A DNA stretch of 64,000 bases from NCBI RefSeq assembly GCF_014696105.1, contig NZ_JACJPO010000078.1, positions 1 through 64,000 on the forward strand, written 5' to 3'. Below the pieces are notes generated by a model. That model ran no database searches and was not told the origin of the DNA. It saw only the letters and a program-made list of their open reading frames with translations. Positions 4,721-62,424 of this stretch are shown here, one piece after another (the stretch's first letter is position 1; each line of letters begins with the position of its first letter). This DNA is from Microcoleus sp. FACHB-1515. Lineage in GTDB: Bacteria; Cyanobacteriota; Cyanobacteriia; Elainellales; Elainellaceae. A program made the position numbers and the translations under genes.

Positions 4721-4786
4721 CATAGGTGCGATCGCCCTATTGCCAGAACCCGTAAGCTGAGCTTCTGTGCTGAATCTTGAGGGTTT

Positions 4787-6336: not shown

Positions 6337-6363
6337 GTCAATTCCTCTGAAAGCTTGAACGGA

Positions 6364-7122: not shown

Positions 7123-7154
7123 CTTCGAGTGCAGTAGGTGGACAGCGATCGGGG

Positions 7155-8210: not shown

Positions 8211-8286
8211 AGATCTCCTTTACGAAGGATTTGCACCTATCGGAGTGTTGAGGTGGTCTTCGTGTCATATCTAAAAATATTGATAC

Positions 8287-8302
8287 ATCAAAATATGTTG
8301 AT
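8287..8302. promoter_or_regulatory. Putative ArsR operator ATCAA-N6-TTGAT
   Basis: A perfect inverted repeat, ATCAA-AATATG-TTGAT. An overlapping dyad TTGAT-AC-ATCAA lies at 8280-8291. It is located between arsR and sphX, in the promoter of the minus-strand arsenic operon. The form matches SmtB/ArsR-family operators. Confidence 0.65.
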
Positions 8303-8383
8303 GAGTCAAGTAGCTAGACGGACTGCATCACACCTTGTCAACAAAGATTTAGACTTCGATTCTAAAAAAACTTGATGAAAAGT

Positions 8384-8707: not shown

Positions 8708-8721
8708 CAACTTTTTTTGAA
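8706..8721. promoter_or_regulatory. Second ArsR operator-like site at arsR start
   Basis: ATCAA-CTTTTT-TTGAA, one mismatch from the ATCAA-N6-TTGAT dyad at 8287-8302. It overlaps the arsR start codon, as expected for an autoregulatory site. Confidence 0.5.
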
Positions 8722-8781
8722 ATGCAATTCATCCAGTATAGAACGCGGACGAATTGGACGCATTGAAGGACAGTCCGCTTG

Positions 8782-8860
8782 AAGTGTCTAACCTCAACTG
8801 CAAAATTTCATCTTGATTTCACATTTGCATGAGAATCTGGGTTTGACGCAAAAGCAGCGA
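8782..8860 (+). repeat. 79-bp direct repeat, right copy, with operator motif
   Basis: The counterpart of 4642-4720, about 91% identical by eye. It contains TTTCAT-N5-TTTCAC at 8806-8822. Here it is followed on the same strand by the RND efflux operon and is probably its working promoter/operator. Confidence 0.85.
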
Positions 8861-8867
8861 TTTTAGC

Positions 8868-9053
8868 TTGCTTCATAGATTTATTTCGATAACAATCCTT
8901 CTGACCCTTCTGATTTCATTCCAAAGTGCCCATGCTTCAAGTACTTTCACGTGCGGCTCGATCGAACTCGGCTTGGTGTTTCTTGGGTCTACTCCTGAGT
9001 TTGCTGTTGATCCCTTCGATCGCGGCGATCGCACATCCGGGGCATGGCAATGA
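8868..9053 (+). CDS. Possible small signal-peptide ORF overlapping adaptor gene
   Basis: A 61-codon frame from TTG 8868 whose first 25 residues look like a signal peptide (ISITILLTLLISFQSAHAS). The rest reads out of frame through the start of the efflux adaptor gene. It may be the remnant of a secreted protein like the one at 2232, left behind the shared operator, or a translated leader. Chance cannot be excluded. Confidence 0.3.
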   Translation: MLHRFISITILLTLLISFQSAHASSTFTCGSIELGLVFLGSTPEFAVDPFDRGDRTSGAWQ

Positions 9054-10587: not shown

Positions 10588-10636
10588 TCATGCCCTCTTC
10601 CCGTCCCGCTGGATTCCACCTTAATTTTTTTAACCG

Positions 10637-13600: not shown

Positions 13601-13795
13601 GGCCCCGGACGCGAAATTCTGCGACCGCTGGCGATCGTCGTTTTGGGCGGGCTGTTCACCTCGACGGCACTCACCTTGCTGATCATTCCCGCCCTCTACT
13701 CGCGGTTTGGCAAATACCTGATTCCCAACCACCAACCCGCCGCCGCACCCGCTGAAACTTCCGTACCCGAAACGGTCGGAACTGCCGAAGTCTAA
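10637..13795 (+). CDS. HME-RND heavy-metal efflux pump (CusA/CzcA-like)
   Basis: A 1052-residue RND transporter with 12 expected helices and two large periplasmic loops. The start MLSAIVRWVIDRRWLV and the conserved PGxxPEEVE...PIExxxNG region (SPGLAPEEVESLVTLPIESAING) are typical of CzcA/CusA. The TM4 proton/metal motif near residues 399-418 reads GTAVDDAIVYGEN, nearer the monovalent-cation (Cu/Ag) HME type than the CzcA DFGxxxDGA form. It is proton-driven and works with the adaptor upstream, separated by 49 bases. Copper or silver is the best guess because of the oxidase and Met-rich neighbours. Ni/Co as in NrsA is the alternative. Confidence 0.94.
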   Translation: MLSAIVRWVIDRRWLVLIATILISLWTVRAIPQMPLDVFPAFAPPQVEIETESPGLAPEEVESLVTLPIESAINGTPGVTAVRSSSATGVSVVEVVFEWGTNIFQARQLVTERLQQVQGNLPEGVEVPLVSPPSSPIGTILKFALTIDPTVPVEGSPTSLMELRRIVDWKISNRLLAVPGVSQLAVYGGDVKQYQVLADPARLAAFNVSLDQVTQAAAGANLNAPGGYLITPDREQIIRGIGRIESIEDLGASTVDARQGTPVRLSDVAEVQIGAGVKRGDGSVNGQPAVIIMVSRQPQGDTPTVTRAVEAAMAETQVGLPQDVKVDVTFRQESYIESSVDNVRSALIEGSIIVAAVLIPFLMNWRTLTVCLLDFFLTLLFSLLVADLIGLGLNTMTLGGLAIAIGTAVDDAIVYGENTYRRLRENRFSDRPQSPLEIIFEGSQEVRESLLGAMLIGIVVFSPIFTLSGVEGRIFTPMGIAYLIVVVVSSLESLLVSPALCALLLPHGRMAVEEPWVARFFKRRYQPFLLFSMRRSTLVMGFAAAAMVAALVITPNLGRSFLPEFQEQTLVNTITLYPGTSLAATNRAGHALELALKDDPRFTYIQTRSGRAPGDGDAGGVNFAHVDVTLSEAGLENRPATIEKLREEFTKLPGVASGIGGFISHRMDEVLSGVRSQIAVKVFGSELDELRSIGEQIEAQMQTVANIVDLQLEPQVPIDQIQIAFDRQAAARYGLTVGSLAEVVETALNGKVVSQVLDSQQTFDLVVWLDERDRNNLSTIENLLVDTPAGQKIPLGQVATIRNGTGPNTINRENVSRRIVVSANVSGRDLRSVVNEIQAKVKENVTVPSGYFIQYGGQFEAEERATQNILVFSLIAAVVITVLMYLSVKSIASTLMIMINLPIALVGGVISVALTGGVLSVASLVGFVTLFGVATRNGLLLVDNYNTKFAAGIPLRETLITGSMERLNAILMTAFTSALGLLPLTLSDGPGREILRPLAIVVLGGLFTSTALTLLIIPALYSRFGKYLIPNHQPAAAPAETSVPETVGTAEV

Positions 13796-18017: not shown

Positions 18018-21000
18018 TTAACCGCTGCCTACCTGATGCTGGCAGACTTCACCATAAGGGCAACCCTGGCAGCTTATAGGCGTTGGATTTGCAGGATATC
18101 GTCCGCTGATGATGCCCTGCACGATCGCTTCAGATGCCAGTCCAACCTTTTCGAGATCGGCTGCTGTCCACGAGTGCAGGCGATCGTGTCGCAAATAAGC
18201 AATGTGAGCAGTCGATCGATTCAATGCTCGCGCATATGCCCAAAGCTGAAAGCGGTGATGGGCTGGGGCAACAATGCGATCGGTCTTGAAGTCCAAAATC
18301 CAATCTGTCCCGACTAAATCTACGATTCCCCGGAGCCTGAGTTTGCCTATTTTCCAGGAAATTGACTGTTCTCGCTCGATCGCAGTCGATCGCAAGGCTG
18401 CAAATGCCGCCGCTTGATCGAAGCGTTTCGCCAGCGCGATCGCCTCATCGACCAGCAGTTGAGCGGCAGTTGGGTCAAACTGGGCGAGGGCGATCGGATC
18501 GCGGATATCTAGCTCTAGGGCTTTGTGGGTTAGTGTGCCGACGCGACGAGCCGCGCTGCTGCCTTCTCCTGCACCCGGATGTCCGTCCACATAGCGAAAC
18601 TGGAAGCGCTTGGGGCAGAGTGCGTAGTCGCTGAGCGCAGTGACGGGCAGGTCAGACAAGCCCGGAGCGATCGCGCCGAGCAGCAGTTGTGTTGGCTGGG
18701 CGGGTGGAAGCGGGTCGGGTGGCAAAACGGGCAGGGCTGCTTCAGCCGAGAAGGGAACTGCAACAATTTCAATACCTGCCACAGCCAAGCCGGGACGCAG
18801 AATTTCTAGTCCGCCGCCTGTGCTATCTGCTGCCGTCAGGAGCAGGTGATCTCTGGCTCTGGTGAGGGCGACATAAAGGACTCGCTTGGCTTCTGCCGCT
18901 TCGCGCTGCTGTCTTAACTGCTTGAGGTGGCGGTAAAGGACGGGCTGTGAATCTTCTGTCTCTAGCGCTTTTAAAGCCACACCGACTTTCGGGTCAAAGT
19001 AGATGGCAGGCGAATCGGAGGCGGCAGCGCGAGTCAAGTCGGGCACTACGACGATCGGCCATTCCAGCCCCTTTGCGGCGTGGATAGTCATCAGTGCGAC
19101 AGCTTGCGCTTCTAGTGTCGGGCGGGGCACTTCGATCGCGGCTTGAACAAGCTGTTTGCACTGGCGCACCACGCCAAACAAATCGAGATTGCGGCGCTCT
19201 AGTTTGCCAACGAGTTCTCGCAGTCCGCGCCAGTCGGCCAAACGACGATCGCCCCCGCTCAAGTTGGTAATCACGGCAGTATAGCCCGTGAGCCGATCGG
19301 CAATTTGCAGCAGGCGGCTGGGCGATTCTGCTTGTCGATCGCCCAATAGCTGACTGAACACTCGAATCGGGAAAGCGAGTTCGGGCGCATGGCTTGATCG
19401 AATTCGCTGCCACCAAACAGCGTTCGACGTTCTCTCAGCCTGCATCACCTCAAACAGCAGGCGATCGCTGATCGCGAAAAACGGACTGCGGAGGACAGCA
19501 ATCAGCGCCAAATCGTCTTTCGGATCGGCTAAAAACCGCAGCAGTGCGAGTCCATCTTTGGCCGTGCGCGTTGCCAGCAAATCGCCGCCTCCCGTTTCAA
19601 CAGCGGGAATTCCCAGCGCTTGTAGCGTTTCGCCATACAGTGCCAGCGGTTCGCGAGTGCGTGACAAAATCGCAATGTCTCGGTATTCGACTGGACGCAG
19701 GCGATCGCTGGCTTTGTCGTGAATCATTGTGCCGCGATCGAGCATTTGCCTGAGCGTTTGGGCAATGTGGAGCGCTTCGGCCTGCTGACGCTGCGGCTTG
19801 TTGATTGCTGGCTCAGCCTGAATTGCGAAAACGCGCAGATGCGGTGCAAGGTGAGGAACTTGCTGACGGTGGGCGGTGAGGTTTTGGTGCAGGTTCGCTA
19901 GAACGGGCGCAAAGATTTGGTTAACCTGACCAATCAGGCCGTGATGGGTGCGGAAGCTTTGCGCCAAACCGACTGCCAAACCATCCCCTGAAACGATGCG
20001 ATCGCGAAACTGCTGAAACACCTCGACATCCGCTCGCCGAAATCCGTAGATCGACTGTTTAACATCGCCCACGATTGTCAAATAGGTGGCAGCGGTCGAG
20101 ATTTGCAGCAGTTCGGCCTGAACCGGATTGGTGTCTTGAAACTCGTCAATCAAAAAGACTTTCCAGCGGCGGGCGTAGTAGTCACGAACTTGAGGATTCC
20201 GCAGGGCTTTGAGCGCTCCCACTTCGAGATCGGCAAAAGTGAGAATGCGCCTGCGCTGCTTTGCCGCATTGAGAAAATTCTGCACAAGCTGAAAGGCTTG
20301 CCGCAGTGCGGACAGACAGATTGATAAGCGATCGTCTGCTTCTCCTAATTGCAGCGTAATCAATTGACGCTCCAGCGTTTTTTGAACAAGAGTTTTGAGC
20401 GCCTTTAGGCTTTCCTGCACAAATGCCTGTGGGCCCGCCTGCCAGTTTTTCGCACTGCCTTTGGAGCGCAAATTCAGGTCTCGAATCGTCTGCAAGCTGA
20501 ATTCAATTTGGCTGGACTGCTCGATCGATTCGATCGCCCCAACTGCAAGTCTACGATTGTTCTCTAGACTGTCACCTGCTGCACCTTCATGAGCGTTAAG
20601 CGTTGATTTTGCCGAGCGCCAGACGGAATGATGCCGCAGTTCCATCAGCGCATTTTGGCGTATTTGCGCGGCGAGATCTGCCCAAGTGCTGCAATCGTGC
20701 TTCAAGGCATATTCAGCCGCGATCGGATCGTCGAGCATTGCCTGTAGCGCTTCTGCCATCTGCGAATGAGGAATCTGGGCATAAAGTTCAAGCGGCAATC
20801 GATCGAGGGCGATCGCAAGCTGTTCGGCCTGCCAAAGCTGGCTGTCGATTTCATCGAGCATTCCAAAGCTGAAAGGGACGCTGGCGGCTGTGGGATGTTC
20901 GCGGCAGACACGAGCGGCGATCGCGTGGAGTGTGGTAATTTGGGCGGCTTCTAGCTCAGCGAGCAAATCCGATCGCTGCGGTAGCTGCTGAGCAACCAAG

Positions 21001-21200
21001 GCTCGAATGCGCGATCGCAATTCGGAGGCGGCTTTTTCGGTGAAGGTTGCTGCCACAATTTCGAGCGGCCTGTAGCCCTGCCGCAGATGAAACAAATAGC
21101 GCTCGGCGAGCATATGCGTTTTGCCCGTGCCTGCTCCGGCTGTGACGGCCACACTTGCTTCCGCATGAGCGGCTTGCTGCTGCTGTTCAGTCAGGCTCAT
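18018..21200 (-). CDS. AddA-like UvrD helicase with C-terminal nuclease
   Basis: A 1060-residue SF1A helicase-nuclease. Walker A is AGAGTGKT (21-28). Other helicase motifs include TFTEKAASEL, DEFQDTNPVQAELL (Walker B), GDVKQSIYGFRRAD (motif III) and MTIHAAKGLEWPIVVVPD (motif V). The C-terminus has a RecB-type nuclease with GIVDLVGTDWILDFKTD. Cysteines in ALCPKRFQFRY and CQGCPYGEVC could hold an iron-sulfur staple. With its partner it should unwind and resect double-strand ends for recombination. Its ATG overlaps the end of the partner gene in ATGA, so the two are coupled. Confidence 0.9.
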   Translation of the reverse strand: MSLTEQQQQAAHAEASVAVTAGAGTGKTHMLAERYLFHLRQGYRPLEIVAATFTEKAASELRSRIRALVAQQLPQRSDLLAELEAAQITTLHAIAARVCREHPTAASVPFSFGMLDEIDSQLWQAEQLAIALDRLPLELYAQIPHSQMAEALQAMLDDPIAAEYALKHDCSTWADLAAQIRQNALMELRHHSVWRSAKSTLNAHEGAAGDSLENNRRLAVGAIESIEQSSQIEFSLQTIRDLNLRSKGSAKNWQAGPQAFVQESLKALKTLVQKTLERQLITLQLGEADDRLSICLSALRQAFQLVQNFLNAAKQRRRILTFADLEVGALKALRNPQVRDYYARRWKVFLIDEFQDTNPVQAELLQISTAATYLTIVGDVKQSIYGFRRADVEVFQQFRDRIVSGDGLAVGLAQSFRTHHGLIGQVNQIFAPVLANLHQNLTAHRQQVPHLAPHLRVFAIQAEPAINKPQRQQAEALHIAQTLRQMLDRGTMIHDKASDRLRPVEYRDIAILSRTREPLALYGETLQALGIPAVETGGGDLLATRTAKDGLALLRFLADPKDDLALIAVLRSPFFAISDRLLFEVMQAERTSNAVWWQRIRSSHAPELAFPIRVFSQLLGDRQAESPSRLLQIADRLTGYTAVITNLSGGDRRLADWRGLRELVGKLERRNLDLFGVVRQCKQLVQAAIEVPRPTLEAQAVALMTIHAAKGLEWPIVVVPDLTRAAASDSPAIYFDPKVGVALKALETEDSQPVLYRHLKQLRQQREAAEAKRVLYVALTRARDHLLLTAADSTGGGLEILRPGLAVAGIEIVAVPFSAEAALPVLPPDPLPPAQPTQLLLGAIAPGLSDLPVTALSDYALCPKRFQFRYVDGHPGAGEGSSAARRVGTLTHKALELDIRDPIALAQFDPTAAQLLVDEAIALAKRFDQAAAFAALRSTAIEREQSISWKIGKLRLRGIVDLVGTDWILDFKTDRIVAPAHHRFQLWAYARALNRSTAHIAYLRHDRLHSWTAADLEKVGLASEAIVQGIISGRYPANPTPISCQGCPYGEVCQHQVGSG

Positions 21201-23824
21201 GCGAATTCTCCTTTGCGCTTAATTCTGCTGCCGCCCCGACAGGCCAAATCCATCGAGCAGTATTTGCAGGCGGCTCGATCGCGATCGGGGTGGACGGGGT
21301 AGTGTCCCTGCTGCAAGTGCTGTTTGACGCGATCGACAAATGCTTGCAGTGCAGGTTCATCGATCGTGACGCGCTGCAAGGTTTTTCCCTTGGTGAGCGA
21401 GTAGTAGTAGGCGTGATGCGGCGATCGATCGGGAAACAGCGAGGCGGCAGCTTGAACGTAGAGCGGTAATTGCAGGTCGAACGTTGCCTTGCCTGCGGCA
21501 TCTTTGGCTCCGATCGGCGGGCTGGAACTTGTTTTGTAGTCGAGAAAAATCAGACCGTTTTCGCTCTCATCAACGCGATCGATCACGCCTTGAACATTGA
21601 GGCCGAACCAGGTTGCGGTGAAAGCTTGCTCCTGGGCAATCACGGTTGCGTCTGGATGTAGAAAATCTGAAGCCGCGATCGCCCGTCGCAGCTTGATTAG
21701 ATGTTCCTGCCTGCGGGCAGACCAAGCTGGAAGGGGAGGGAGCGAAACTTCAATCTCGGCAGCTTCAAAAGCGGCATCGAGGCGATCGAGGATCTGCTGG
21801 CGAACATCACCAGCTTCGATCGGCTGGCGAAACGCAACTTCGAGCGCTTTGTGATACAGCCGTCCGCGCAGAGAAGGACTGAGTTCTGTTTCTGCTTCCT
21901 CTGCGTCTCGCAGCTTCAGCAGGTAGCGAGTAAACCACTTGAATGGGCAGTGTCCCAAAGCTGTTAGTTGAGAAGCGCTAAACACCCAATCGGCAGGATC
22001 GATCGCCTGCCCCACAATGCCGTCAAATTCATCCCATGTGGTCGATCGCTCTCGCCGCTGCTCAACTGTCCACGCACGGATTGCACTGGGTAAAACGTCA
22101 TCTTCGAGTAAGTTGCCGTGCTGAAGCTGGATCGATCGCATCTCTTCGCGGCTGGCAATTGGTAGGCTAGAACGTGATGGCTGGAGTTTGAGCCGAGCTA
22201 GATAGGGACTGGGCAGAACTGCCGCGTCTTCAATCAGCTTGGGGTAAGAAAGCGTTAGCCTGTCGATCGCCGTTCCCAGCAGGGCATAAAAAGACAGCGT
22301 TTCTCGTCGGGCAGTTGCGGCAGCATCGTCGAAGCGGAACCCCTGCGCGATCAGTTGTTGACGCTCATAGAAGTCCAGCACCGGATCATCTCGCACGATC
22401 GCAGGCAGCATTCCTTCTGCCATGCCCAACACAAACACGTGACGATACTGAGCGCCCATGACTGAAAGAGGAGTGTGCAGTTCAACGCCGCCTCGTCCCG
22501 GTTGGGCTGGAACGGTGAGCAGCGAAAGCAAGATGGCAATTTCTTCTGTAAATTCGATTAGCGTCAGGCGATCGGCTTCTGGCTGAGCCAGTTCGACAAG
22601 TCCAGCTTGCAGCTTGTAATAGGCCAGCATTTCACGCGGCCATCGCCTGCACCGCTGCCGCAAGTTAAACGCTTTTAGGGCAAGTTGCAGTCGCTCTACC
22701 CAGTTTTCGCGAGTGTCTTGCCGCTGCCAATCGAGCATGGTCAAATCGACGCCGCACCGTTCCCAGGCCGATCGCCCCTGCGGATGGCTGCGTCTGGCGA
22801 TCGCCCAAGTCTCATCCGGCAGCGCTTCAGACAAGACGTGGTTCAGCAGCTTTGCGGTTGCTTCAAAAGCAAAATCGCTCTGCACAACTTCAATCAGCAG
22901 TTGCAGCCACGCACCCAAACGAGTTTCGTGCAGAGGCACAGCGTACAGCGCCCGAATTGGAATTTCATATTCCCAAGCAACATCCAACAGCGTCGAGCCG
23001 TAAAAGGCATCATCTCGCGCCACCAGCACGATGTCAGCCGCCGCGCCACCTTGATGCAGAAGCTGTTTCACCTGCGCCAAGGCACCGCGCACTTCTGCTT
23101 CGAGATTGTCGTAGACCTGAGCTTGAATGGCGGCCAACGGCATATCCGTTTGCTGCAAAAAACGCTGCTGAGCCGGAGTGCTTGTTGCTCCCGAAAGCGG
23201 TTCGATCGCCCAGCCCCGCTGCTGTAACCAGGCGATTGTCTGCTGATTGTCCACATCACTCGATCCGGCACAAGGTAAAAACAGGACGCTACCGTCAGCG
23301 GCGATCGCATCGAGAAACGCCAGTTCGTCCCAGCGCGGCTGCACATAGCCGTAGACGCAAATTTGCTGGCAATCCTGCTCTTGTATGAGATCAGTCGCTC
23401 GCCAAAGTAGTTCTGCTGGATCGATCAGGCTAGCTGCTTGGAGTTGAGCTTGATAGGCAATCGCCAATTCTGCCAGCGATCGAATGCGCTCAGAAGTTCT
23501 TGCTGCAAGCGCTTGAAGTGAAACTCCAGAGCGCAAAATGGTGGCGATCGCTGGCTGGATGCGCTCAGCCATGCCTGCCACGTCGATCGTGGGTGACTGC
23601 TTGCGGATAGTGCTGCTTAAACTGCGATGGCTGGCGATCGCGGAGGCAATATGCAGCCCGTGCCGCTGACAAATTTCTTGCGCGAGTTGCTTAAGGCTGC
23701 AATGCGGCTGATCAAATAGTCGAGCCGCTTGGGGAGTTGCCGTAACGCTTCTCAAATTCGGCGCTGCCGCAATTTCTCGTACTGCATCGCTAAATGCTGA
23801 AGTGAGGTACAAAGTCCGGCTCAT
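21197..23824 (-). CDS. AddB-like nuclease subunit with FeS cysteines
   Basis: 875 residues. There is no Walker A at the N-terminus (MSRTLYLTSAFSDAVREIAA), consistent with an inactivated helicase-like half as in AddB. The C-terminal RecB-type nuclease shows GVIDRVDESENGLIFLDYKTS and a following Q-rich motif (FDLQLPLYVQAA). Four cysteines for an iron-sulfur cluster are visible: LGHCPFKWF plus CKYCSMDLAC. Middle motifs such as HTPLSVMGAQYRHVFVLGMAEG match the AddB arrangement. It forms a two-gene operon with the AddA-like gene. Length is somewhat short of Bacillus AddB (about 1160). Confidence 0.87.
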   Translation of the reverse strand: MSRTLYLTSAFSDAVREIAAAPNLRSVTATPQAARLFDQPHCSLKQLAQEICQRHGLHIASAIASHRSLSSTIRKQSPTIDVAGMAERIQPAIATILRSGVSLQALAARTSERIRSLAELAIAYQAQLQAASLIDPAELLWRATDLIQEQDCQQICVYGYVQPRWDELAFLDAIAADGSVLFLPCAGSSDVDNQQTIAWLQQRGWAIEPLSGATSTPAQQRFLQQTDMPLAAIQAQVYDNLEAEVRGALAQVKQLLHQGGAAADIVLVARDDAFYGSTLLDVAWEYEIPIRALYAVPLHETRLGAWLQLLIEVVQSDFAFEATAKLLNHVLSEALPDETWAIARRSHPQGRSAWERCGVDLTMLDWQRQDTRENWVERLQLALKAFNLRQRCRRWPREMLAYYKLQAGLVELAQPEADRLTLIEFTEEIAILLSLLTVPAQPGRGGVELHTPLSVMGAQYRHVFVLGMAEGMLPAIVRDDPVLDFYERQQLIAQGFRFDDAAATARRETLSFYALLGTAIDRLTLSYPKLIEDAAVLPSPYLARLKLQPSRSSLPIASREEMRSIQLQHGNLLEDDVLPSAIRAWTVEQRRERSTTWDEFDGIVGQAIDPADWVFSASQLTALGHCPFKWFTRYLLKLRDAEEAETELSPSLRGRLYHKALEVAFRQPIEAGDVRQQILDRLDAAFEAAEIEVSLPPLPAWSARRQEHLIKLRRAIAASDFLHPDATVIAQEQAFTATWFGLNVQGVIDRVDESENGLIFLDYKTSSSPPIGAKDAAGKATFDLQLPLYVQAAASLFPDRSPHHAYYYSLTKGKTLQRVTIDEPALQAFVDRVKQHLQQGHYPVHPDRDRAACKYCSMDLACRGGSRIKRKGEFA

Positions 23825-45710: not shown

Positions 45711-47087
45711 ATGTCATCCACTTTCAAACCTTTCGCTCCTTCTTTGCCTGCTCTTCAACTCGATCGCACCTTTCCCTTCAGCACTCAGCAGCACTTGGCC
45801 TTGGCTGCGATCGAGCAGTTCTTGAATATGCCAGAGCGCAAACTTTTCCTGCTCAAAGGCTTTGCGGGAACTGGCAAATCAACCGTGCTGTGCTTGCTGA
45901 TGCAGCATCTGCGACAGCACGGCTGGAGGATTGCCATGACTGCTCCCACAAACAAAGCCGTCAACGTGCTGCGCCAGATGGCGGCTCAGGTGCAGCTACA
46001 GGGCGTTGACTTCATGACAATCCATCAGCTTTTGGGGCTATCGCTCAAAAGCAGCGGTGGCGAAAAGCGACTGGAGCCAACCGGACAGCCCTTGACGCGA
46101 CTGTACCATCTAGTTGTGATTGATGAATGCTCGATGATCGGAACGGCGCTGTGGGCAGAAATTGCCAAGCTCGATTCGCCCCTGCTGCCCACAAAGATCG
46201 TTTTGATGGGCGATCCGGCTCAACTCAATCCAGTCGGTGAAGCAAAATCGCCGAGCTTTCGCGTACCGCTGGCGGCAACCCTAACCCAGGTGGTGCGCCA
46301 GCATCAGGGTAGTCCACTGGCCGAGTATATTGCGGACTGTCGGCGCAGCGTGACGCGCAGTCAAGCACCGTTTCAGCCGTACTCCCATCATCGTCAGGGG
46401 CAAGGCGTGTTTCGAGTTAGCCAAGCAAAGCTGCTCGATTACGCCTGCCACACGATCGCCCGCCAGTTCGAGCAAGCGCCAGATTGCTTTCGCATCCTTT
46501 GTTTCACGAACCGCCAGGTCGATTATTACAACCAAATTGTGCGGCAGGCGTATTATGGCACTGCTGCGCCGCGATTTGTCGTGGGAGAGCGCCTGATTAC
46601 CCGCGACCCGATTATTGGGGCAGACAAGAAAACCATCGTCGTGCCAACCGCGACTGAAATTGTCGTGCAAGGCGTAGAGCTTGACGACTACTGCGGCTAC
46701 TCGGTGTGGCGCTTACAAATCGAAATCGATCGAGACAGCAAGCAAATCTATGTGCTGCACGAGTCGGAGCAAGACCGCTTCGATCGCGAAACAATTCGTC
46801 TTCAAGCAGCGGCAAAGCGCAATCCGTATCTGTGGCATGTTTACTACAAGCACCTGGAAACCTTTGCCCAGGTCAGACCGTGCTTTGCCCTGACGATTCA
46901 CAACGCTCAAGGCTCGACATTTGCTGAAGTCGGCATTGATGCCAACGACATTCTCAAGCGGCTTGCCCATACGAACGAAGATCGATCGAGCCGCCTCAAA
47001 GAATACAACCGCCTCCACTATGTCGCTGCCTCCCGTGCCCAGCGCCGCGTTCTCGTCGTTTACTCACGCCGTCCCGTTGCGAATTGA
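45711..47087 (+). CDS. SF1B DNA helicase, Dda/RecD2-like
   Basis: 458 residues from ATG 45711 (MSSTFKPFAPSLP); a 34-codon extension is in frame. Motifs: Walker A KGFAGTGKST, Ia MTAPTNKAVNVL, Walker B VVIDECSM, motif III MGDPAQLNPVGE, motif IV LCFTNRQVDYYN, motif V LTIHNAQGSTF, motif VI YVAASRAQRRVLVVYS. The layout is that of phage Dda and RecD2, 5'-3' helicases that help forks pass proteins. It is the first gene of a plus-strand cluster with dnaN, dnaX and holA, so a replication role is likely. Its last codons lie in a perfect 30-bp tandem duplication. Confidence 0.92.
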   Translation: MSSTFKPFAPSLPALQLDRTFPFSTQQHLALAAIEQFLNMPERKLFLLKGFAGTGKSTVLCLLMQHLRQHGWRIAMTAPTNKAVNVLRQMAAQVQLQGVDFMTIHQLLGLSLKSSGGEKRLEPTGQPLTRLYHLVVIDECSMIGTALWAEIAKLDSPLLPTKIVLMGDPAQLNPVGEAKSPSFRVPLAATLTQVVRQHQGSPLAEYIADCRRSVTRSQAPFQPYSHHRQGQGVFRVSQAKLLDYACHTIARQFEQAPDCFRILCFTNRQVDYYNQIVRQAYYGTAAPRFVVGERLITRDPIIGADKKTIVVPTATEIVVQGVELDDYCGYSVWRLQIEIDRDSKQIYVLHESEQDRFDRETIRLQAAAKRNPYLWHVYYKHLETFAQVRPCFALTIHNAQGSTFAEVGIDANDILKRLAHTNEDRSSRLKEYNRLHYVAASRAQRRVLVVYSRRPVAN

Positions 47088-47120
47088 GCCTACTCACGCC
47101 GTCCCGTTGCGAATTGAGCC
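47061..47120 (+). repeat. Perfect 30-bp tandem duplication at helicase 3' end
   Basis: Positions 47061-47090 are repeated exactly at 47091-47120. The unit includes the final codons and stop of the helicase gene, so the second copy encodes a duplicated tail outside the frame. Probably a recent slippage event. Confidence 0.9.
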
Positions 47121-47166
47121 ATCGCTGCTATCGCAGCCTTCTCGCACCGTTATTCTCCCTTGATTC

Positions 47167-48522
47167 ATGCCAACAATTGCTTCTCCCCCGATCGCCGAAC
47201 CCGAATCGACATCAACGACGAAATCTAAGCGTCGTCAGAAACAAACGATCGAAGAGCGATCGCGCCAATCTACGAAGTCAAAATCCGCCTCAACCCCTGA
47301 ACCTGCTTCGATTGAGGTTGATACAGCGCTGCGGTTGCACTGCTCCAGTTCATATCTCGGCACAGCGCTCGACATCGCGCTAGCGGCGGTGGCAGGCAAA
47401 CCCACTCAGCCAATTTTGAGCAACGTTCGGCTGGTTACCACAGGCAAAACGCTGGTTCTTACGACAACCGATATGGCGTTTACGATCGAAGTCACGCTGC
47501 CAGCCACAATTGCAGCGTCTGGAGCAATCACCGTTCCCGCCAAGCTGCTGCGCGACACGGTCGATCGCGCCCCCAAAGGTGACATTTCCTTAGCCGCACA
47601 AGACACGGATTTGACGCTGACCGATGTTCAAGACGGCGATTACTTGCTGCGCGGCCTCAGCGCCGAAGATTTCCCTGCTACTGTGCCATTGGGTGACTCC
47701 AAGTTCACGCATCGTGTCGCTGCGAAACGCTTGCAGGCCGTTTTGACGGGCACAGCCTTTGCTGCCAGCAGCGATGAGCAGAAGAAGATTCTAACCGCAG
47801 TGCGCTGGCAAATTGACGCAGACCAGCTCAACTGTCACGCGACTGACGGCCATCGGGTCGCTACCACAACGATCGCTGCGAATCCCTCCAAACGGCGCAA
47901 GGCGGCTGAGGCTGACTCGATCGCCTGGTTGCTGCCAGTCAAAGTCGTGCAGCACCTAATGTCGCTGATCGACAAGATGGGCGTTGAGCAAATGGTGAGC
48001 TTGGAGTATGCCGCCGCGACCAATCAGGTTTGCTTCAAGCTGACTGTCGATGAATTGGAAGTCAAGCTCTCGTGCATCTGCATGGACTTGACGCTCTACC
48101 CGAACGTGCAAACGGTCTTGGCAAACTTTGACTACCCCCACGAAGTTTTAGTCGAGCGCCGCGATTTGATCGCCAAAATTGAGCGGCTACTGCCAATTTT
48201 GGGCACAGGTAAAAGCCGGACGATCGAATTGCGCTTTGATGCCCAAGCCCGCTGTATTCATCTTGCCAGCGAGAATGACGCGATCGGGCGATCGACGCAA
48301 CGCCTCCAGTCGCTCTCAATGTCTGCCGATCTGCATGACCAGTGCTGGCTGATCGATGCTGCCTTGGCGCTGACGATTCTCAAAGCTGGCATCACAACCG
48401 GGACTCGTTTGCGGTTGGGACTGCCTTCGACGGCGATCGAGTTCAACCTGGCTGGCGACTCGGAACAGCCGGATTTGCAGCTTGAAGCGACCTACTATCT
48501 GATGCCGATGAGCCGCGAATAG
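47167..48522 (+). CDS. dnaN: DNA polymerase III beta sliding clamp (plasmid-borne)
   Basis: 451 residues. The first 50 are a Ser/Thr/Lys-rich extension absent from ordinary beta clamps. The three-domain clamp then runs from about 52 (ALRLHCSSSYLGTALDIALAAV, KPTQPILSNVRL, ITVPAKLLRDTVDRAP, HATDGHRVATT) to the end YYLMPMSRE, where the conserved MPM signature of DnaN is retained. It should form the dimeric ring holding a polymerase on DNA. Core length fits (about 370-400). A second, diverged dnaN on a plasmid is unusual; the extension may set partner choice. Start ATG 47167 lies 79 bases after the helicase stop. Confidence 0.92.
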   Translation: MPTIASPPIAEPESTSTTKSKRRQKQTIEERSRQSTKSKSASTPEPASIEVDTALRLHCSSSYLGTALDIALAAVAGKPTQPILSNVRLVTTGKTLVLTTTDMAFTIEVTLPATIAASGAITVPAKLLRDTVDRAPKGDISLAAQDTDLTLTDVQDGDYLLRGLSAEDFPATVPLGDSKFTHRVAAKRLQAVLTGTAFAASSDEQKKILTAVRWQIDADQLNCHATDGHRVATTTIAANPSKRRKAAEADSIAWLLPVKVVQHLMSLIDKMGVEQMVSLEYAAATNQVCFKLTVDELEVKLSCICMDLTLYPNVQTVLANFDYPHEVLVERRDLIAKIERLLPILGTGKSRTIELRFDAQARCIHLASENDAIGRSTQRLQSLSMSADLHDQCWLIDAALALTILKAGITTGTRLRLGLPSTAIEFNLAGDSEQPDLQLEATYYLMPMSRE

Positions 48523-48621
48523 CATTTCAGGTTCGCTGCTCATTTGTGCGACGTTGCACCGTTTGCTCTGGCTAACTGCCGGGGCAAACGGTGCTTTTCC
48601 CTTGTCTATTCATCCAACTCC

Positions 48622-50043
48622 ATGCCGAAAACTCAATCTCTATCCAACTCTGCTGCCGAATCGATCGCGACCGCAACTGTCTCGCTTGCCCTCAAGTACC
48701 GCCCCCAAACGCTCAATCAGGTAGTCGGACAATCGGCGTTGCGACAAACGATCGCCAACGCCATTGACCTCAACCAAATCCACAAAGCCTATTTGTTCTA
48801 CGGCCATCGAGGAACGGGCAAAACTTCAACCGCCCGCATCCTTGCCAAGTCGCTCAACTGTCTGGAGTTCGATCGTCCCACTAACCGACCTTGCGGAGTT
48901 TGCGTGTCCTGCCGAAGCATCCAAGATAGTTCCAGTCTGGATGTTGAAGAAATCAACTGCGGCGACCACAACGGCGTCGATCACGCCCGTGAACTGATCC
49001 AGCACGCGCATTTGACTCCGGCGATCGGGCGGTTTCGCGTCTTCATCTTGGACGAAGCGCACTGCCTCACCGCCAACGCTGCCAGTGCTCTGCTCAAAAT
49101 CTTGGAAGAGCCGCCGCGCCATGTCGTATTCATTCTTTGTACGACAGATGCCCACAAGCTGCTGCCCACGATCGTCTCGCGCTGTCAGCGATTCGAGTTT
49201 CGCCGCCCCACTCCGAATCAGGTGGCCGCTTACCTAGAGCGCATCTGCAACCGTGAGCAGATTCCAACTGAAGCGGGTGCGCTACATGCGATCGCACAGG
49301 CGGCAAACTGCGGACTGCGCGACAGTATTGAACTGCTCGACCTGCTGCGCCTCACCTATCCCCAAGAGGCAATTACGATCGATCAGGTAGCCGCTCAAGT
49401 CGGCGCTTTGAGCGAATCGCAACTGCTGCCGCTGATCCAGGCACTCTCAGGCCGCAGCGTGTTTGCCGTGCTGCGCGAAGTGCGAATCCTCGTCGAGCAG
49501 CAGGTTGAGCCAAGCATTATTTTGATGCACCTGCTTCAGTGCTGGCGCGATCTACTGCTGCTGAAAACCGCTGATGCGAGCGAGCAGTGGTTACGTGGCC
49601 TGATTCGACCGGACAAGCTTAAAGCGATCGCAACGAGTTGGACGATCGCCGATCTCAATGCCAGCCTCGATCGCCTCCATCAGCTTGAAACCTGGCTGCG
49701 CCACACGGCTCAAGATAGCCGCAATGCCGAGGTTTACCTGGAAACTGCCCTGATCATGATGATGCAGGATCGATCGGAGCGATCGATCGGCGCACGGAAG
49801 CGATCGCAACCCACAGCCGCCCAGCGCTGGCAGCAGGCGATCGACACCGCGCCTCCCAAACTCAAGCTGCTGCTGCAAGCGGCTCAGTTCACTCAGTACC
49901 AAGACAATAAAGCCGTTTTGCGGGTTGCGCCCGATCAGGTGGCTCGCTACCAGCGGCATCAAGCTCGAATTGAGCAATTTCTGATGCAAGCGCTTGGGCA
50001 AGAGGATTTACAGCTTGTGATTCGCGGGGTGAAATCATCATGA
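48622..50043 (+). CDS. dnaX: DNA polymerase III gamma/tau clamp-loader subunit
   Basis: 473 residues from ATG 48622; the longer 48544 frame lacks support. AAA+ motifs: SLALKYRPQTLNQVVGQ, Walker A GHRGTGKTS, zinc cysteines (NCLEF...CGVCVSC), Walker B ILDEAHCLT, ALLKILEEPP and sensor SRC in TIVSRCQRFEF. Domain III follows with ALSGRSVFAVL. The length is close to E. coli gamma (431) and well short of tau, so a tau-type polymerase-binding tail is mostly missing. It ends in ATGA overlapping holA, giving translational coupling. It provides the ATPase motor to load the adjacent clamp. Confidence 0.95.
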   Translation: MPKTQSLSNSAAESIATATVSLALKYRPQTLNQVVGQSALRQTIANAIDLNQIHKAYLFYGHRGTGKTSTARILAKSLNCLEFDRPTNRPCGVCVSCRSIQDSSSLDVEEINCGDHNGVDHARELIQHAHLTPAIGRFRVFILDEAHCLTANAASALLKILEEPPRHVVFILCTTDAHKLLPTIVSRCQRFEFRRPTPNQVAAYLERICNREQIPTEAGALHAIAQAANCGLRDSIELLDLLRLTYPQEAITIDQVAAQVGALSESQLLPLIQALSGRSVFAVLREVRILVEQQVEPSIILMHLLQCWRDLLLLKTADASEQWLRGLIRPDKLKAIATSWTIADLNASLDRLHQLETWLRHTAQDSRNAEVYLETALIMMMQDRSERSIGARKRSQPTAAQRWQQAIDTAPPKLKLLLQAAQFTQYQDNKAVLRVAPDQVARYQRHQARIEQFLMQALGQEDLQLVIRGVKSS

Positions 50044-50981
50044 GCATCTTAATTTTGGTAGGAGACGATACTCAGGCGATCGAGCAGGCGATCGAGCAAG
50101 CGCAGCACAAACTTGATCCAGCTTGGCGATCGCTCAACTTCCATCGCTTTCCAGATGGCAACTTGGCGGCTGCGATCGCCACAGTCCGCACCCTGCCCTT
50201 GTGCGACACGCGCAAAGTCGTGGTGATTGATTGTGTTCTGCGGCAGTGGAATGAGGAAGAGTTTGCCCTGCTCGATCAGCTTCCCCGCATTGCCCTTAAC
50301 CATACGCTAATTGTCGTCACGCCCGCATTCGACAAGCGGTTAAAAGTTGCTAAAGCGCTGCTGCGCTACGGAACGCTGCAAGAGTTTTGGCTAACTCCCC
50401 CTTGGCGGCTTGATCTGATTGAGCAGGCGATCGCACGACAGGCGCGATCGAAGCGGCTGAAGCTGTCAGCGGCCATGCTTGCCTACCTTGCAACTGCGAT
50501 CGGCAACGATACGGTTCGTGCCGCAACTGAACTGGACAAACTCAAGCTCTACACTCAGCGATCGACTTTGACACTATCGGTCGTCAAATCGCTAGTGCCC
50601 ATACTCACGCACACAAGCTTGCAACTGGCGGCAGCAGTGCGCGACCATCAAACGATCAGAGCGATCGAACTTTTAGAAGCGCTGCGGCAGCGCGGCGACT
50701 CGCCCCAAGTCATTTGCGCCACGCTGATCACCCAGTTTCGCCTGTGGCTCTCGGTGAAAGCGGCGATCGCCCATCGCACTTGCGATCGCGACATTGCCAA
50801 CTTCTGCAATCTGACCAACCCCAACCGCCTGTACTACCTCAAGCAAGAAATTCAAGCGATATCGCTGCGATCGCTAACGCAAACGCTGCACCAACTGGTC
50901 ATGCTTGACGTAGCGCTGCGGCAGGGACAGGTCGATCGGCTAGAAACAGCGATCGTTCGCCTCAGCGGTAGAGCGGCTTAA
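50040..50981 (+). CDS. holA: DNA polymerase III delta subunit
   Basis: 313 residues (usual about 340). The start SILILVGDDTQAIEQAI matches the DnaX-like fold without an active Walker A. The FPDGNLAAAIATVRTLPLCDTRKVVVID stretch (compare phase of HolA: ...sLFs.rRlVvl) and the C-terminal collar helices (AVRDHQTIRAIELLEALRQRGDSPQVICATLITQF) are typical of delta. Delta is the wrench that opens the beta ring. No delta-prime (holB) is present in the window, so a host subunit would have to complete the loader. Start overlaps dnaX stop by 4 bases. Confidence 0.9.
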   Translation: MSILILVGDDTQAIEQAIEQAQHKLDPAWRSLNFHRFPDGNLAAAIATVRTLPLCDTRKVVVIDCVLRQWNEEEFALLDQLPRIALNHTLIVVTPAFDKRLKVAKALLRYGTLQEFWLTPPWRLDLIEQAIARQARSKRLKLSAAMLAYLATAIGNDTVRAATELDKLKLYTQRSTLTLSVVKSLVPILTHTSLQLAAAVRDHQTIRAIELLEALRQRGDSPQVICATLITQFRLWLSVKAAIAHRTCDRDIANFCNLTNPNRLYYLKQEIQAISLRSLTQTLHQLVMLDVALRQGQVDRLETAIVRLSGRAA

Positions 50982-53996: not shown

Positions 53997-54068
53997 CACA
54001 GGGTAGCTCAGCGGTAGAGCAGTCGGCTCGTTTCCGACCGGACGCAGGTTCGAGCCCTGCCCCTACAA
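53997..54068 (+). tRNA. tRNA-Thr(CGT)-like gene, defective acceptor stem
   Basis: D arm GCTC-AGCGGTA-GAGC (54006-54020), anticodon arm GTCGG-CTCGTTT-CCGAC with anticodon CGT, five-base variable region, and T arm GCAGG-TTCGAGC-CCTGC (54044-54060) are all well formed. The acceptor 3' strand CCCTACA pairs with the 5' strand CACAGGG in only the four inner pairs; the outer three do not match. Loop position 37 is T rather than a purine. It is a real tRNA relic or a tRNA-like element; function as Thr-tRNA is doubtful. Confidence 0.7.
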
Positions 54069-57383: not shown

Positions 57384-58460
57384 ATGGCTATCTCCACCCC
57401 ACCCAACACCCGCACGGCCACTGCTTCGCGCCCTCGCAAGCCGGAGCGATCGCCCGTTGCGCCAACCGAAGAGACAGAAGACCTCAGCCCCGATGAGGTT
57501 GAGCGGCTGCGTACCTGGGTCGATCCCGAAATGCTTGATGCGCGTTATGACCAGATGCGCCGCCGTCCGATTCCCAGCGGCATTGTCGTCAACGATGATC
57601 CAGCAGGCATCTTGATTCCAGTTGACCAGCTTAAAGCCTGTGGCTGGCAGCCCAAAGTGACCAAGAAGCAGTTGCACACCTATCGTCCTAAGAAAGAGCC
57701 GATCACCGGATTGTTGCTGATGCAGGTGCGGATGCTGATCTTGGGACACACCGAGCTATTTGTTGAGCGCAAGCGCCGCGCTGAAGGCAAACGCACGATT
57801 CTTGGCTGGGCTAGCGAGATTGGCGATCGCTTCAACAAGCGCACCATGAGCTTGTGCCGCTCCTACTTGATGGTGTTTCTCGATGAAAACAACCAGCCGC
57901 TGCACACCACACCTCTAAAGGTGACGTTTAAGAACGTTGCTCGCGTCAACCTGGAAATTGCCCTGGAGAAATACTACGGAGCCGCCGAAGCGATCACCGC
58001 CAAGCTTTACCCCAATGCCGCCGAATCGCGTACACAGGGAAAAAGCGACACTTGGCGATCGCATGTCGTAATTGAACTTGAATTCAAGCCGGAGTACGAA
58101 GGCAAACAAGACCAAAGCTTGTGCTGCAAAGTCGGGCAGATGACGCGCATCACTGGACGCAACTATGACCAGTACCTGCTGGGTGACAGCATAGGGATGG
58201 CGCAGGTCAAAGTGATTCGAGGCACGATCGCCGATATCTTGGGCAACCTCGATGCGCTGCCTGCGATCGCCGAGGCGCAATCAGCCAAGGCGCTGCCGAC
58301 TGCTGCCGCTAATGCTGCTGATGAAGCTGGGGATGCGATCGACGTGGAAGCGGTGGATGTAGAGGTTGAGGACGACGTAGACGACTTCACGGCTGATGAT
58401 GAGCGTGAAGACGAGGACGACTTCGATCTCGAAGACGAAGACGAGGACGACCTCGACTAA
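57384..58460 (+). CDS. Plasmid protein with acidic tail (DUF5895-like?)
   Basis: 358 residues from ATG 57384, chosen because ACAAGGAC lies about 10 bases upstream; a 28-codon extension is open. The core (about 60-290) includes FVERKRRAEGKRTILGW and RSHVVIELEFKPEYEGKQDQSLCCKVGQM. The C-terminus is a long Asp/Glu tail (DEREDEDDFDLEDEDEDDLD). An acidic C-terminal tail on a plasmid protein recalls single-strand DNA-binding proteins. I recall similar cyanobacterial plasmid proteins as DUF5895, but this is unsure. The 3' end overlaps the convergent gene by 4 bases. Confidence 0.7.
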   Translation: MAISTPPNTRTATASRPRKPERSPVAPTEETEDLSPDEVERLRTWVDPEMLDARYDQMRRRPIPSGIVVNDDPAGILIPVDQLKACGWQPKVTKKQLHTYRPKKEPITGLLLMQVRMLILGHTELFVERKRRAEGKRTILGWASEIGDRFNKRTMSLCRSYLMVFLDENNQPLHTTPLKVTFKNVARVNLEIALEKYYGAAEAITAKLYPNAAESRTQGKSDTWRSHVVIELEFKPEYEGKQDQSLCCKVGQMTRITGRNYDQYLLGDSIGMAQVKVIRGTIADILGNLDALPAIAEAQSAKALPTAAANAADEAGDAIDVEAVDVEVEDDVDDFTADDEREDEDDFDLEDEDEDDLD

Positions 58461-59680: not shown

Positions 59681-62104
59681 TTAAGGACGAATGTAGGGCA
59701 TGGGGTTGACGGGGGTTCCAGACACGACTCCCGCTTGAGCGTTACGGCGCACCTCGAAGTGCAGGTGTGGTCCGGTTGAACCGCCTGTGCTGCCGACTTG
59801 GGCGATCGTCTGTCCCTGGCTCACCGTTTGACCGACTCGTACCTGGATGCCGCCGTCGCGGATGTGGGCATAGCGCGTTTGAAGGCCGTTGCCGTGATCG
59901 AGGATGACAATGTTGCCATAGCCGCGCATTCGACCTGCATAGATCACGCGCCCGCCGTCTGCGGCTCGAATGGGTGTGCCTTGAGGAGCGGGAAAGTCTT
60001 GTCCGGCGTGCATCCGGCGATCGCCGTAAATCGGGTGGACGCGCCAGCCGAACGGACTGCCCGTGCGTGTGCCCGGAAGCGGATGAATCATGCGGCCATG
60101 TGCAACGCCATCGCCGTTTGTCGTGGCAGAGTTTGTGCCGCCCGGTGCTGTGCAAGCGCTGCCCGGAGCGCCAAGGCTACCGCTGGCACTGCTGGAAACT
60201 GCCCCGCCGCCTGATTCATAGTTTTGTCGGGCGCGAACTCCGTATTGGTACGTGGTGATGTTGCCATCTGAAGCGCGACTGTCGATGCGTGAATACGCGC
60301 CGCCATGATGCATCTGAGCAATCCGCTCGACCAAGCGCCCGCTCGTAAACGGTCTACCCGTTGTTGGATCGATTTGACGGCTTGCTCGTTGCGCCAAAGC
60401 GCTCAGCGAATTGCGAAAGGCTTGCTCCTGGTCAGCGGGCGGAAAGAACTGCATCATCTCAGCTTGCGTCGGACGCTGACCCGATCGCACCCGATCGAGA
60501 AACGCTTGCCCGCCAGATTTCCGGGCGATCGTCTGGGCAGCAAACTCGTTGTAGTTCATAAACTGGTAGCGCCCTAGCCCGCGCCCGCAGTTGCGCCCAC
60601 CATCCGCACAGCCGTAAGGACCAACGGCGTTGTAGTTGCCGCCGCTCTCGATCGCTTGAATTGCCCGCGCCATGCGATCGATGTCCACCCCCTGCACGGT
60701 TCCACCCGCTACGGGAGCGGACTGCGTCGGCTGTCCGTTCGCATCGTAGCAATCGATCGCACTGGGATCGTAGCTGCCGTAGCGACCCGGATCGCCGTTG
60801 CGTTGCGCTCCCGTTGGCGTAGAGGTGTCGATTTCTGAATTAAGCTGTGTGAGCAATCCGACAAACATCTTGGCGTTGACTCGGTAGGTGAAGAATGGAA
60901 TTGGGCCGATGATGTAGGGCGTACATCCAGACGAACCCCCACAGGCGCGAAAGAACAGCGCGGTATCGACGCTATCTTGCGTTTCATCTGGCTCCATCAC
61001 CACAACTTTGAACAGCGATCCAAACGGTAAGCGCCCCGTCGGTTCTTTGCCGCCACCCACTGCTGTGAGCAGACCATGCCCACCGTTGACTTCTTGATAT
61101 TTACCGGACACCCACTGTTTGCCTTCGATCGCGCCGCGAACGCTGCGCCCCTCGTTTTCGAGATCATCGAGTTCAATATAGGCACAGTCTCGAACCTGAC
61201 AGGGAACGGCAAAGCCATCCACGTCCGACCCGGAAATTGTGGTTTGACGATGGTTCTCGGCCACGTTGTAAATCATGTCAATCCGCATCACGATTCCGGC
61301 GACATCCACGCCCATCGGTCGGGGAAATTGTCCAAGCGGCACGGCAGCAAGGCCAGGAACTTCTTGAACAAAGCTGGACTGCCACTGATCGAACTGCTGA
61401 AGTTGCACACCCGAAAGGTTCGGCAGGTCGGCCACTTGAAATCCAAATAGTTCAGTGTCGCCTAGAAAGCGCTGCCCCAATTCCGGGTAGCGATCGATCG
61501 CCTCTGCAATCGTCAAACTGCCAAAATCAGAAATCTTCTCACTTAACGCTTCCGCTACACCATCGACGAGGTTCTGACCTGTAAACAGTGCCAGGATTGG
61601 CTTGACCGTTGTGACCAAGCGGTTGCCCAAATCCGGCACAATCTCAACTAGGTGCGCGATCGTTTGGTTAGCCGCGAGGTGAAAGTCTGCGAGCGAAGCC
61701 TGCTCTAAAGTTTTACCCAGAACTGAACCAATTGATTCAAGCGAAAACAGTTCTGGGCGCAGCGCAGCGGCAATGTCACCCAGCTTGAGAAATTCGTCAG
61801 GCGTTTGTCCAGCTCGCCAAACCCGGCTGATGTCATAGCCGATCTGCTCGCTCCACGCTTTCCCATCGATCGCTCCGTCAGTTGCGATTGCGGGAAGCTG
61901 GTTGAACGCAATTTGGTTCCAATCGGGGAGCAACACCTCCGCTTGATCATTGCCCGCCTGCATTTGCTCCAGGCGCGTGGGCAATCGCACCTCATCCGCC
62001 CATGCGCTGGTTGGCATCATGAGCCAGCAGCTTAGCAGCCATAGCAGCAGCACAACCAGGCGCAGTCCGCGCTGCTGCCAGCTTCGACTCGATCGCATCT
62101 TCAT
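59681..62104 (-). CDS. Lysozyme-like/M23 peptidoglycan hydrolase
   Basis: About 807 residues from MKMRSSRSWQQRGLRLVVLL (62104), which gives a good signal peptide; a 16-codon extension is in frame. The first 430 residues are unrecognised. From about 500 (longer numbering) a lysozyme-like transglycosylase region runs IDRMARAIQAIESGGNYNAVGPYG...GLGRYQFMNYNEFAAQT, with the Glu of AIESGG as likely catalyst. The C-terminus is a LytM/M23 endopeptidase: GSPFGWRVHPIYGDRRMHAGQDF and HGNGLQTRYAH, ending STGPHLHFEVRRN (zinc ligands His, Asp, His). Two activities in one protein suit opening the cell wall for a conjugation channel. Confidence 0.9.
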   Translation of the reverse strand: MKMRSSRSWQQRGLRLVVLLLWLLSCWLMMPTSAWADEVRLPTRLEQMQAGNDQAEVLLPDWNQIAFNQLPAIATDGAIDGKAWSEQIGYDISRVWRAGQTPDEFLKLGDIAAALRPELFSLESIGSVLGKTLEQASLADFHLAANQTIAHLVEIVPDLGNRLVTTVKPILALFTGQNLVDGVAEALSEKISDFGSLTIAEAIDRYPELGQRFLGDTELFGFQVADLPNLSGVQLQQFDQWQSSFVQEVPGLAAVPLGQFPRPMGVDVAGIVMRIDMIYNVAENHRQTTISGSDVDGFAVPCQVRDCAYIELDDLENEGRSVRGAIEGKQWVSGKYQEVNGGHGLLTAVGGGKEPTGRLPFGSLFKVVVMEPDETQDSVDTALFFRACGGSSGCTPYIIGPIPFFTYRVNAKMFVGLLTQLNSEIDTSTPTGAQRNGDPGRYGSYDPSAIDCYDANGQPTQSAPVAGGTVQGVDIDRMARAIQAIESGGNYNAVGPYGCADGGRNCGRGLGRYQFMNYNEFAAQTIARKSGGQAFLDRVRSGQRPTQAEMMQFFPPADQEQAFRNSLSALAQRASRQIDPTTGRPFTSGRLVERIAQMHHGGAYSRIDSRASDGNITTYQYGVRARQNYESGGGAVSSSASGSLGAPGSACTAPGGTNSATTNGDGVAHGRMIHPLPGTRTGSPFGWRVHPIYGDRRMHAGQDFPAPQGTPIRAADGGRVIYAGRMRGYGNIVILDHGNGLQTRYAHIRDGGIQVRVGQTVSQGQTIAQVGSTGGSTGPHLHFEVRRNAQAGVVSGTPVNPMPYIRP

Positions 62105-62115
62105 GGCTGGCTTGG

Positions 62116-62424
62116 CTAACGTTCCCAATCCGACGCGGTGCGATCGCCCCAAGCCTCGCCGCCCGTGTCGAAGCTGTACCCCAACCCCTCACTCGTTGGG
62201 CTGTGTGGATTTGGATTGCTGGGCGTCTCGTTAAAAGGCGTATCAAAGATCGAGTCAGCGGCGTAGAGATTTTCCTGGAGCGGATTGCTGATGTGGTCTA
62301 CTTGCCAGGGGTTATCTCCCGCGCCGAGGGACACATTCGCCTCGCTGCCCCAACCACTCGCTTCTGAGCCACACACGCCCTGTGCATAGCCGTCAGTGCC
62401 GTAACCGTTTTCTTCAGGTTCCAT
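62116..62424 (-). CDS. Small Gly/Asn/Ser-rich hypothetical
   Basis: 102 residues, acidic and low-complexity (MEPEENGYGTDGYAQGVCGSE and so on), with no predicted helix or signal. It ends 11 bases before the hydrolase start and is probably the first gene of that operon. Unrecognised. Confidence 0.55.
   Translation of the reverse strand: MEPEENGYGTDGYAQGVCGSEASGWGSEANVSLGAGDNPWQVDHISNPLQENLYAADSIFDTPFNETPSNPNPHSPTSEGLGYSFDTGGEAWGDRTASDWER

Follow-up and report, generated by a model that had tools for sequence, protein, structure and literature searches.

Clamp, clamp-loader and polymerase genes on a probable large cyanobacterial plasmid suggest a plasmid-encoded elongation replisome core

Plasmids are generally considered to supply the factors that initiate their replication and to leave elongation to host proteins. 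In bacteria, the tau tail of the clamp loader ties it to the Pol III alpha subunit and to DnaB, and phage T4 has a replisome made up of the polymerase gp43, the clamp gp45, the loader gp44/62, the single-stranded DNA-binding protein (SSB) gp32 and the helicase Dda. We analysed a 64,000-nucleotide stretch of Microcoleus sp. FACHB-1515 (hereafter the window), that is, bases 1-64000 of contig C76 (79,444 bases; the genome has 5.79 Mb in 96 contigs), which carries a helicase gene followed by dnaN, dnaX and holA. We propose, at a probability of roughly 0.68, that this element codes for the core of an elongation replisome of its own, where a clamp and loader of Pol III type are predicted to serve a swappable polymerase other than Pol III, of family A here (PolA lineage) and of family B on sister plasmids (PolB lineage).

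Several described systems resemble parts of this one. The Actinobacteria enzyme PolA2/APEX is, according to its authors, the first bacterial family-A polymerase with an identified beta-clamp motif (PMC12926913). The plasmid polymerase is likewise a bacterial family-A enzyme bearing such a motif; however, the PolA2/APEX motif is in a loop of an inactivated 3'-5' exonuclease, whereas here the motif lies in a thumb insertion, the exonuclease residues are largely kept, and the gene accompanies those of clamp and loader on cyanobacterial plasmids. PolA3 has close phage homologues. For the plasmid polymerase, 3859 phage records matched, and the 15 matches listed are 26-32% identical; a phage source of the plasmid enzyme was rejected on this ground. 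The A-family polymerase-SSB primase pairs of mobile genetic elements (PMC10061031) also combine a family-A polymerase with an SSB on mobile elements. In that text, the thumb tip is likened to T7 polymerase-thioredoxin binding, one model has it as the docking site, and 'cyanobacteri' and 'sliding clamp' have no occurrences. CyRepA/CyRepX (PMC10899382) also concern cyanobacterial plasmid replication but, unlike the plasmid clamp system, are Rep proteins, and that text has no occurrence of clamp, dnaN or DNA polymerase. No earlier description of such a plasmid system was found in the paper library searched, and a term search of PMC8600333 had no hits.

The element resembles the T4 replisome as a mobile element with a putatively clamp-docked polymerase, a loader, a probable acidic-tailed gp32-like SSB and a Dda-like SF1B helicase. 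It differs in that the carrier is a plasmid, the clamp and loader are bacterial DnaN, DnaX and HolA, the polymerase is of family A, and neither a primase nor a hexameric helicase was recognised; the T4-type family-B polymerase with a C-terminal clamp motif occurs on sister plasmids and not on the window element. As in the bacterial Pol III system, clamp and loader are identified as DnaN, DnaX and HolA by curated models, but here they are plasmid-borne, tau-less and distinct from the chromosomal copies, and no C-family Pol III alpha was recognised among the C76 open reading frames (ORFs) given to Pfam, a subset of the ORFs of an open contig.

The cassette comprises four genes:
45711-47087, forward strand: SF1B helicase, RecD/Dda-like, 458 amino acids (aa), from an ATG start; a longer TTG frame begins at 45609
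47167-48522, forward strand: DnaN (beta clamp), 451 aa; TIGR00663 score 143.1 bits (cut-off 137.65)
48616-50043, forward strand: DnaX of gamma length, 475 aa, from an ATG start (TTG frame from 48544); TIGR02397, 342.5 against 250 bits
50040-50981, forward strand: HolA (delta); TIGR01128, 161.8 against 80 bits

The original prediction, made from the letters of this DNA, had described the helicase-DnaN-DnaX-HolA row, a 50-residue extension of DnaN, the gamma length of DnaX and an ATGA overlap of dnaX with holA, and all of these were confirmed by coordinates, domain models and motifs. Four same-strand replication genes in succession, recurring on other plasmids, are not a product of chance. The helicase matched Pfam AAA_30 (4.7e-24) and, in part and far under the cut-off, RecD2 (78 against 500 bits); its seven PDB matches include RecD and Dda (3upu, E 1e-8). 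The TIGR00663 match of DnaN begins at residue 57, so the N-terminal extension of about 50 residues is real. Pfam detected domains I and II and not III, and the alignment extends to a C-terminal MPM. All core residues of the peptide-binding pocket, which we take to be L155, T172, H175, P242, M362 and P363 in E. coli numbering, are kept in DnaN, and the pocket rim departs from the chromosomal pattern.

In DnaX, the Walker A and B motifs (GHRGTGKT, DEAH), the SRC motif and the four zinc-binding cysteines are intact, and the C-terminal tau region is missing (475 aa against 634 for the frame of the host copy). The same difference was seen in the wider sample, where frames of 432-555 residues were found in 44/47 plasmid rows and of 586-921 in 24/26 chromosomal rows; some genes are counted twice there. 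The three plasmid frames below that range are L161, which the locus end truncates, and L024 and L147, which are not truncated; the two chromosomal exceptions (L177, L180) are cut. A DnaX without the tau tail fits a loader that works with a separate polymerase.

The original prediction had also held that the element still borrows its polymerase. This proved wrong or incomplete, as a polymerase gene lies on the same contig beyond the 64-kb window:
C76 67237-69045 (L010 3237-5045), forward strand: family-A polymerase, 602 aa

This protein has a 3'-5' exonuclease domain and lacks a 5' nuclease domain. The exonuclease motifs Exo I (DxE) and Exo III are kept. The subfamily was found on the same kind of plasmids, and the gene follows that of a DUF5895 protein in 28 of the 30 genome-contig loci having at least 8.5 kb downstream. 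We observed the pattern Q[LMI]SL[FLV] at one alignment position, in a thumb insertion, in 43/44 rows of the closest PolA class, a sample that includes our own sequence (QLSLV), counts both pieces of one broken gene (L081 and L082), contains many near-copies and leaves out three fragments below 340 aa and one duplicate. The pattern was kept in 7/8 sequences less than 75% identical and was absent, like the insertion, from the 5/5 aligned chromosomal-type Pol I; the host's own Pol I has neither the insertion nor the motif. QLSLV by itself is at chance level, so the weight rests on its conservation. A model of a relative (mean pLDDT 84) has a fold matching Klenow (Z 35.6) and T7 polymerase (about 31), and places the motif at residues 237-241, between helices 204-227 and 253-262, in a stretch of lower confidence (about 62) with short helical turns. 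This site lies near the docking place of the processivity factor on T7 polymerase and may coincide with it exactly. At the thumb position of the motif, longer PolA relatives (L062, L063, L065, L074-L078 and L080; frames of 812-844 aa) carry QLDLL or QLDIL, and some of them share a genome with the shorter PolA.

Between holA and the polymerase gene lies a candidate SSB gene:
57384-58460, forward strand: DUF5895 protein with an acidic C-terminal tail (GTG frame from 57300)

DUF5895 occurs in both the PolA and the PolB lineage. The acidic tail was found in 38/41 PolA-lineage frames, the other three being too short to judge, and in 0/22 PolB-lineage frames. In a model built from a 24-row alignment (mean pLDDT 68), blocks of about residues 61-260 mostly reach 80-94. 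The top structural matches were gp32 cores (Z 5.8, 5.6 and 5.5), followed mostly by OB-fold binders of single-stranded DNA; the best viral Foldseek match was the DUF5895 protein of an iridescent virus. The modelled fold weakly suggests a gp32/OB-like single-stranded DNA-binding protein, and an SSB role of DUF5895 is likely.

When we searched plasmid records by tblastn, HolA matched 43, of which 28 were typed conjugative, and DnaN matched 69. We used 36 cyanobacterial records from the 40 listed among the 43 HolA matches, leaving out three unlisted records, three weak Leptolyngbya boryana records and an Enterococcus match, which adjoins comEC and rpsT and resembles a chromosomal stretch. The genes are annotated singly on many cyanobacterial plasmids, and the cassette is not unique. 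Ten of the 12 cyanobacterial holA loci opened had dnaN, dnaX and holA; L047 and L156 had dnaX and holA, with no dnaN within the stretch seen. In Gloeocapsa, Oscillatoria and Planktothrix the three genes are contiguous and dnaX overlaps holA by 4 bases, so that the gene order which the original prediction proposed to look for on cyanobacterial plasmids does recur. Other genes intervene between dnaN and dnaX in Nostoc C057 and Anabaena pANACY.01, and between dnaX and holA in Leptolyngbya BL0902. Helicase relatives lie 5' of dnaN in 4 of the 7 named PolA-lineage plasmid holA loci (L013, L015, L048 and L049), separated from it in L015 by an insertion sequence. The genes shared by Gloeocapsa pGLO7428.02 and C76 are collinear, in the order helicase, dnaN, dnaX, holA, type IV secretion coupling protein (T4CP), DUF5895, M23, methyltransferase, PolA and AAA. 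C76 itself carries plasmid-type genes (ParA/ParB, an integrase, the T4CP and accessory genes). We call C76 a plasmid on the strength of these features and of its synteny with named plasmids rather than of a closed sequence; it is probably part of a large plasmid.

Among the matches listed for the 36 holA records, 13 had PolA, 18 PolB and none both, so that 31/36 carry a polymerase of their own; absence here means absence from the rows listed (best 60 of 128; best 60 of 62). Conversely, holA was present on 18/18 listed cyanobacterial PolB records and on 13/23 listed cyanobacterial PolA records. All 8 genomes with HolA above 200 bits have PolA above 400 bits, against 15/195, kinship being ignored; two of these eight have solely the longer PolA form.

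The second lineage includes Trichormus variabilis plasmid C, Nostoc pC052_E and genome loci, and clusters genes for a DUF5895-like protein, DnaN, DnaX, a family-B polymerase of about 605 aa, HolA, HolB and a protein of about 224 aa. Of 23 PolB-lineage genome loci, 22 had DnaN, 21 PolB and 21 HolA in the stretch, and 20 had HolB, a count that leaves out L125 and L138 as cross-matches to DnaX. The family-B polymerase ends in QLSLF in 25/25 sequences, and the termini of three more read QLSLF or QLTLL; matches below 200 bits were dropped from this sample, in which L016 is represented by a C-terminal fragment. An IS5-like element interrupts the family-B polymerase gene of Trichormus variabilis plasmid C (L016, 8300-11005). 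An unnamed family of about 230 aa (L083-L153) occurs in both lineages, its genes lying either upstream of PolA or behind holB. It has a QxxLF terminus in 44/55 frames and a similar peptide near the start in some; its L050 copy has no Pfam match, and no member was found on contig C76.

The two lineages suggest a broader reading, whose odds we put slightly above even: large cyanobacterial plasmids may form a replicon class in which a captured clamp and gamma/delta loader stay fixed while different polymerases can be plugged in (family A via the thumb motif or family B via the C-terminus, not both on one plasmid, and not Pol III alpha), with a shared gp32-like SSB. If true, plasmids that bring clamp, loader, SSB and polymerase themselves would be an exception to the rule of borrowed elongation, which may matter for host range and for how many large plasmids coexist per cell. 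Such a family would offer a natural experiment in which one clamp serves exchanged polymerase families, as well as a family-A enzyme whose clamp motif is close to the thioredoxin spot of T7. It would also suggest a role for DUF5895 and for the unnamed family of about 230 aa.

The claim of a clamp and loader core specific to the element was supported by separate host copies and by trees. The genes are not the only dnaN, dnaX and holA of the genome, a case that the original prediction had named as speaking against it: elsewhere the host has one dnaN (C3, 30% identity), one dnaX (C52, 44%) and one holA (C11, 36%), and a likely holB on C13 is among the weaker DnaX matches. In the HolA tree, whose bootstrap had not settled, 17 PolA-lineage rows lie on one side (support 95/99), where they meet four chromosomal rows of another family via long branches, and 9 PolB-lineage rows group together (100/100). 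In the DnaX tree, 26 plasmid rows group together (SH-aLRT 98), separate from 26 chromosomal rows, and in the DnaN tree the PolA and PolB lineages form groups of 9 rows each (support 99 each), the latter attached to the long branch of E. coli; both are quick trees in which long branches meet. Plasmid HolA, DnaX and DnaN fall in plasmid clades outside the sampled host orthologues, as the original prediction had expected of trees with the host copies. The delta loop that contacts the clamp, as assigned from E. coli, reads F-G in 22/22 chromosomal rows and in 3/17 PolA-lineage rows. Its divergence in the other 14 suggests a private pairing of delta and clamp in this lineage.

The genes, motifs, synteny, trees and co-occurrence described above point to a scheme whose interactions, host delta-prime, SSB role and timing we infer. 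Plasmid gamma and delta, with host delta-prime, would load the plasmid beta clamp; a host delta-prime is suggested by the candidate on C13, none having been recognised on C76. The clamp would hold the family-A polymerase via the short motif in its thumb insertion, the gp32-like DUF5895 protein would coat single strands, and the SF1B helicase would assist. The likely use would be plasmid replication and/or second-strand synthesis after conjugation. Borrowing of host delta-prime and primase, as originally predicted, is consistent with these data.

A number of observations weigh against this scheme. The polymerase gene lies 16 kb past holA, and among the matches listed 5/36 holA records have neither polymerase. 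One such motif (QLSLV) was seen among the contig ORFs against 1.11 expected from shuffled ones, 454/20000 shuffles of PolA contain one, and the motif restricted to terminal F or L does not occur on this contig. Among 15 distant PolA rows, 7 have the pattern, 3 have QLDIL and 5 have neither (4 of these lack the Q). The presumed Exo II aspartate is E in our copy and D in Planktothrix. The match of DUF5895 to the T4 gp32 core (Z 5.8, rmsd 4.6, 161 aligned) is below Z 8, and at E<=0.001 Foldseek matched no structure of the PDB. No terminal overlap was found in the open contig, PF03432 relaxase was not found on it, and no initiator (Rep) or primase was recognised among the C76 ORFs given to Pfam.

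The elongation core has to be weighed against a repair or tolerance toolbox, in which the private clamp and polymerase would fill gaps or bypass damage on the plasmid (or after transfer) while host Pol III copies the bulk. PolA-type enzymes usually serve in repair, the contig also carries an AddA/AddB-like pair, and 10/23 listed PolA records have no listed holA, which also counts against the elongation core. We nevertheless consider this reading unlikely, since an own loader and clamp are hard to explain if copying is left to the clamp and Pol III of the host, and sister plasmids cluster the genes of polymerase, clamp, gamma, delta and delta-prime.

It is quite improbable, in our view, that plasmid beta, gamma and delta instead mix with host subunits, with host Pol III copying the plasmid or scarce factors being supplemented. 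All three belong to host families with their core motifs kept, no holB was recognised among the C76 ORFs given to Pfam, and the delta loop is host-like in 6/8 PolB-lineage rows (2/8 differ), again a point against the elongation core; however, the tau tail is missing from DnaX at the frame sizes given above, the clamp rim and this plasmid's delta loop are unlike those of the host, and the plasmid has its own polymerase. The partial sets at L156 and L047 would suit captured chromosomal genes carried as ballast with no dedicated role, but the plasmid clades are separate from host genes, the gene order recurs, and catalytic and clamp motifs are retained across deep divergence, which makes this highly improbable. 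Chance neighbours or a chromosomal-only set were ruled out by the separate host copies, the plasmid recurrence and the shared gene order. A phage origin of DnaN was tried and rejected (23 phage records matched, 2 over 80% of the query; nine Nodularia phages), and two viral_contigs scans found no relative. In Planktothrix, NCBIfam and Pfam recognised no Rep among proteins of 1227 and 1208 aa.

Other genes of the window belong to the plasmid backbone:
24164-25781, forward strand: ParA-like and ParB genes (plasmid partition)
55334-57259, reverse strand: T4CP, a conserved neighbour
59681-62152, reverse strand: M23 peptidase-domain protein, conserved backbone

The T4CP is present in 28/31 DUF5895 loci having at least 4 kb upstream. 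A single tRNA-Thr gene with a CGT anticodon (53997-54068, forward strand) lies between the cassette and the T4CP gene. At 18018-23824 on the reverse strand, genes for a UvrD-type helicase/nuclease and a second PD-(D/E)XK protein overlap by 4 bases and resemble an AddA/AddB recombination pair. Multicopper oxidase and RND efflux genes at 3017-13795 are perhaps metal resistance cargo.

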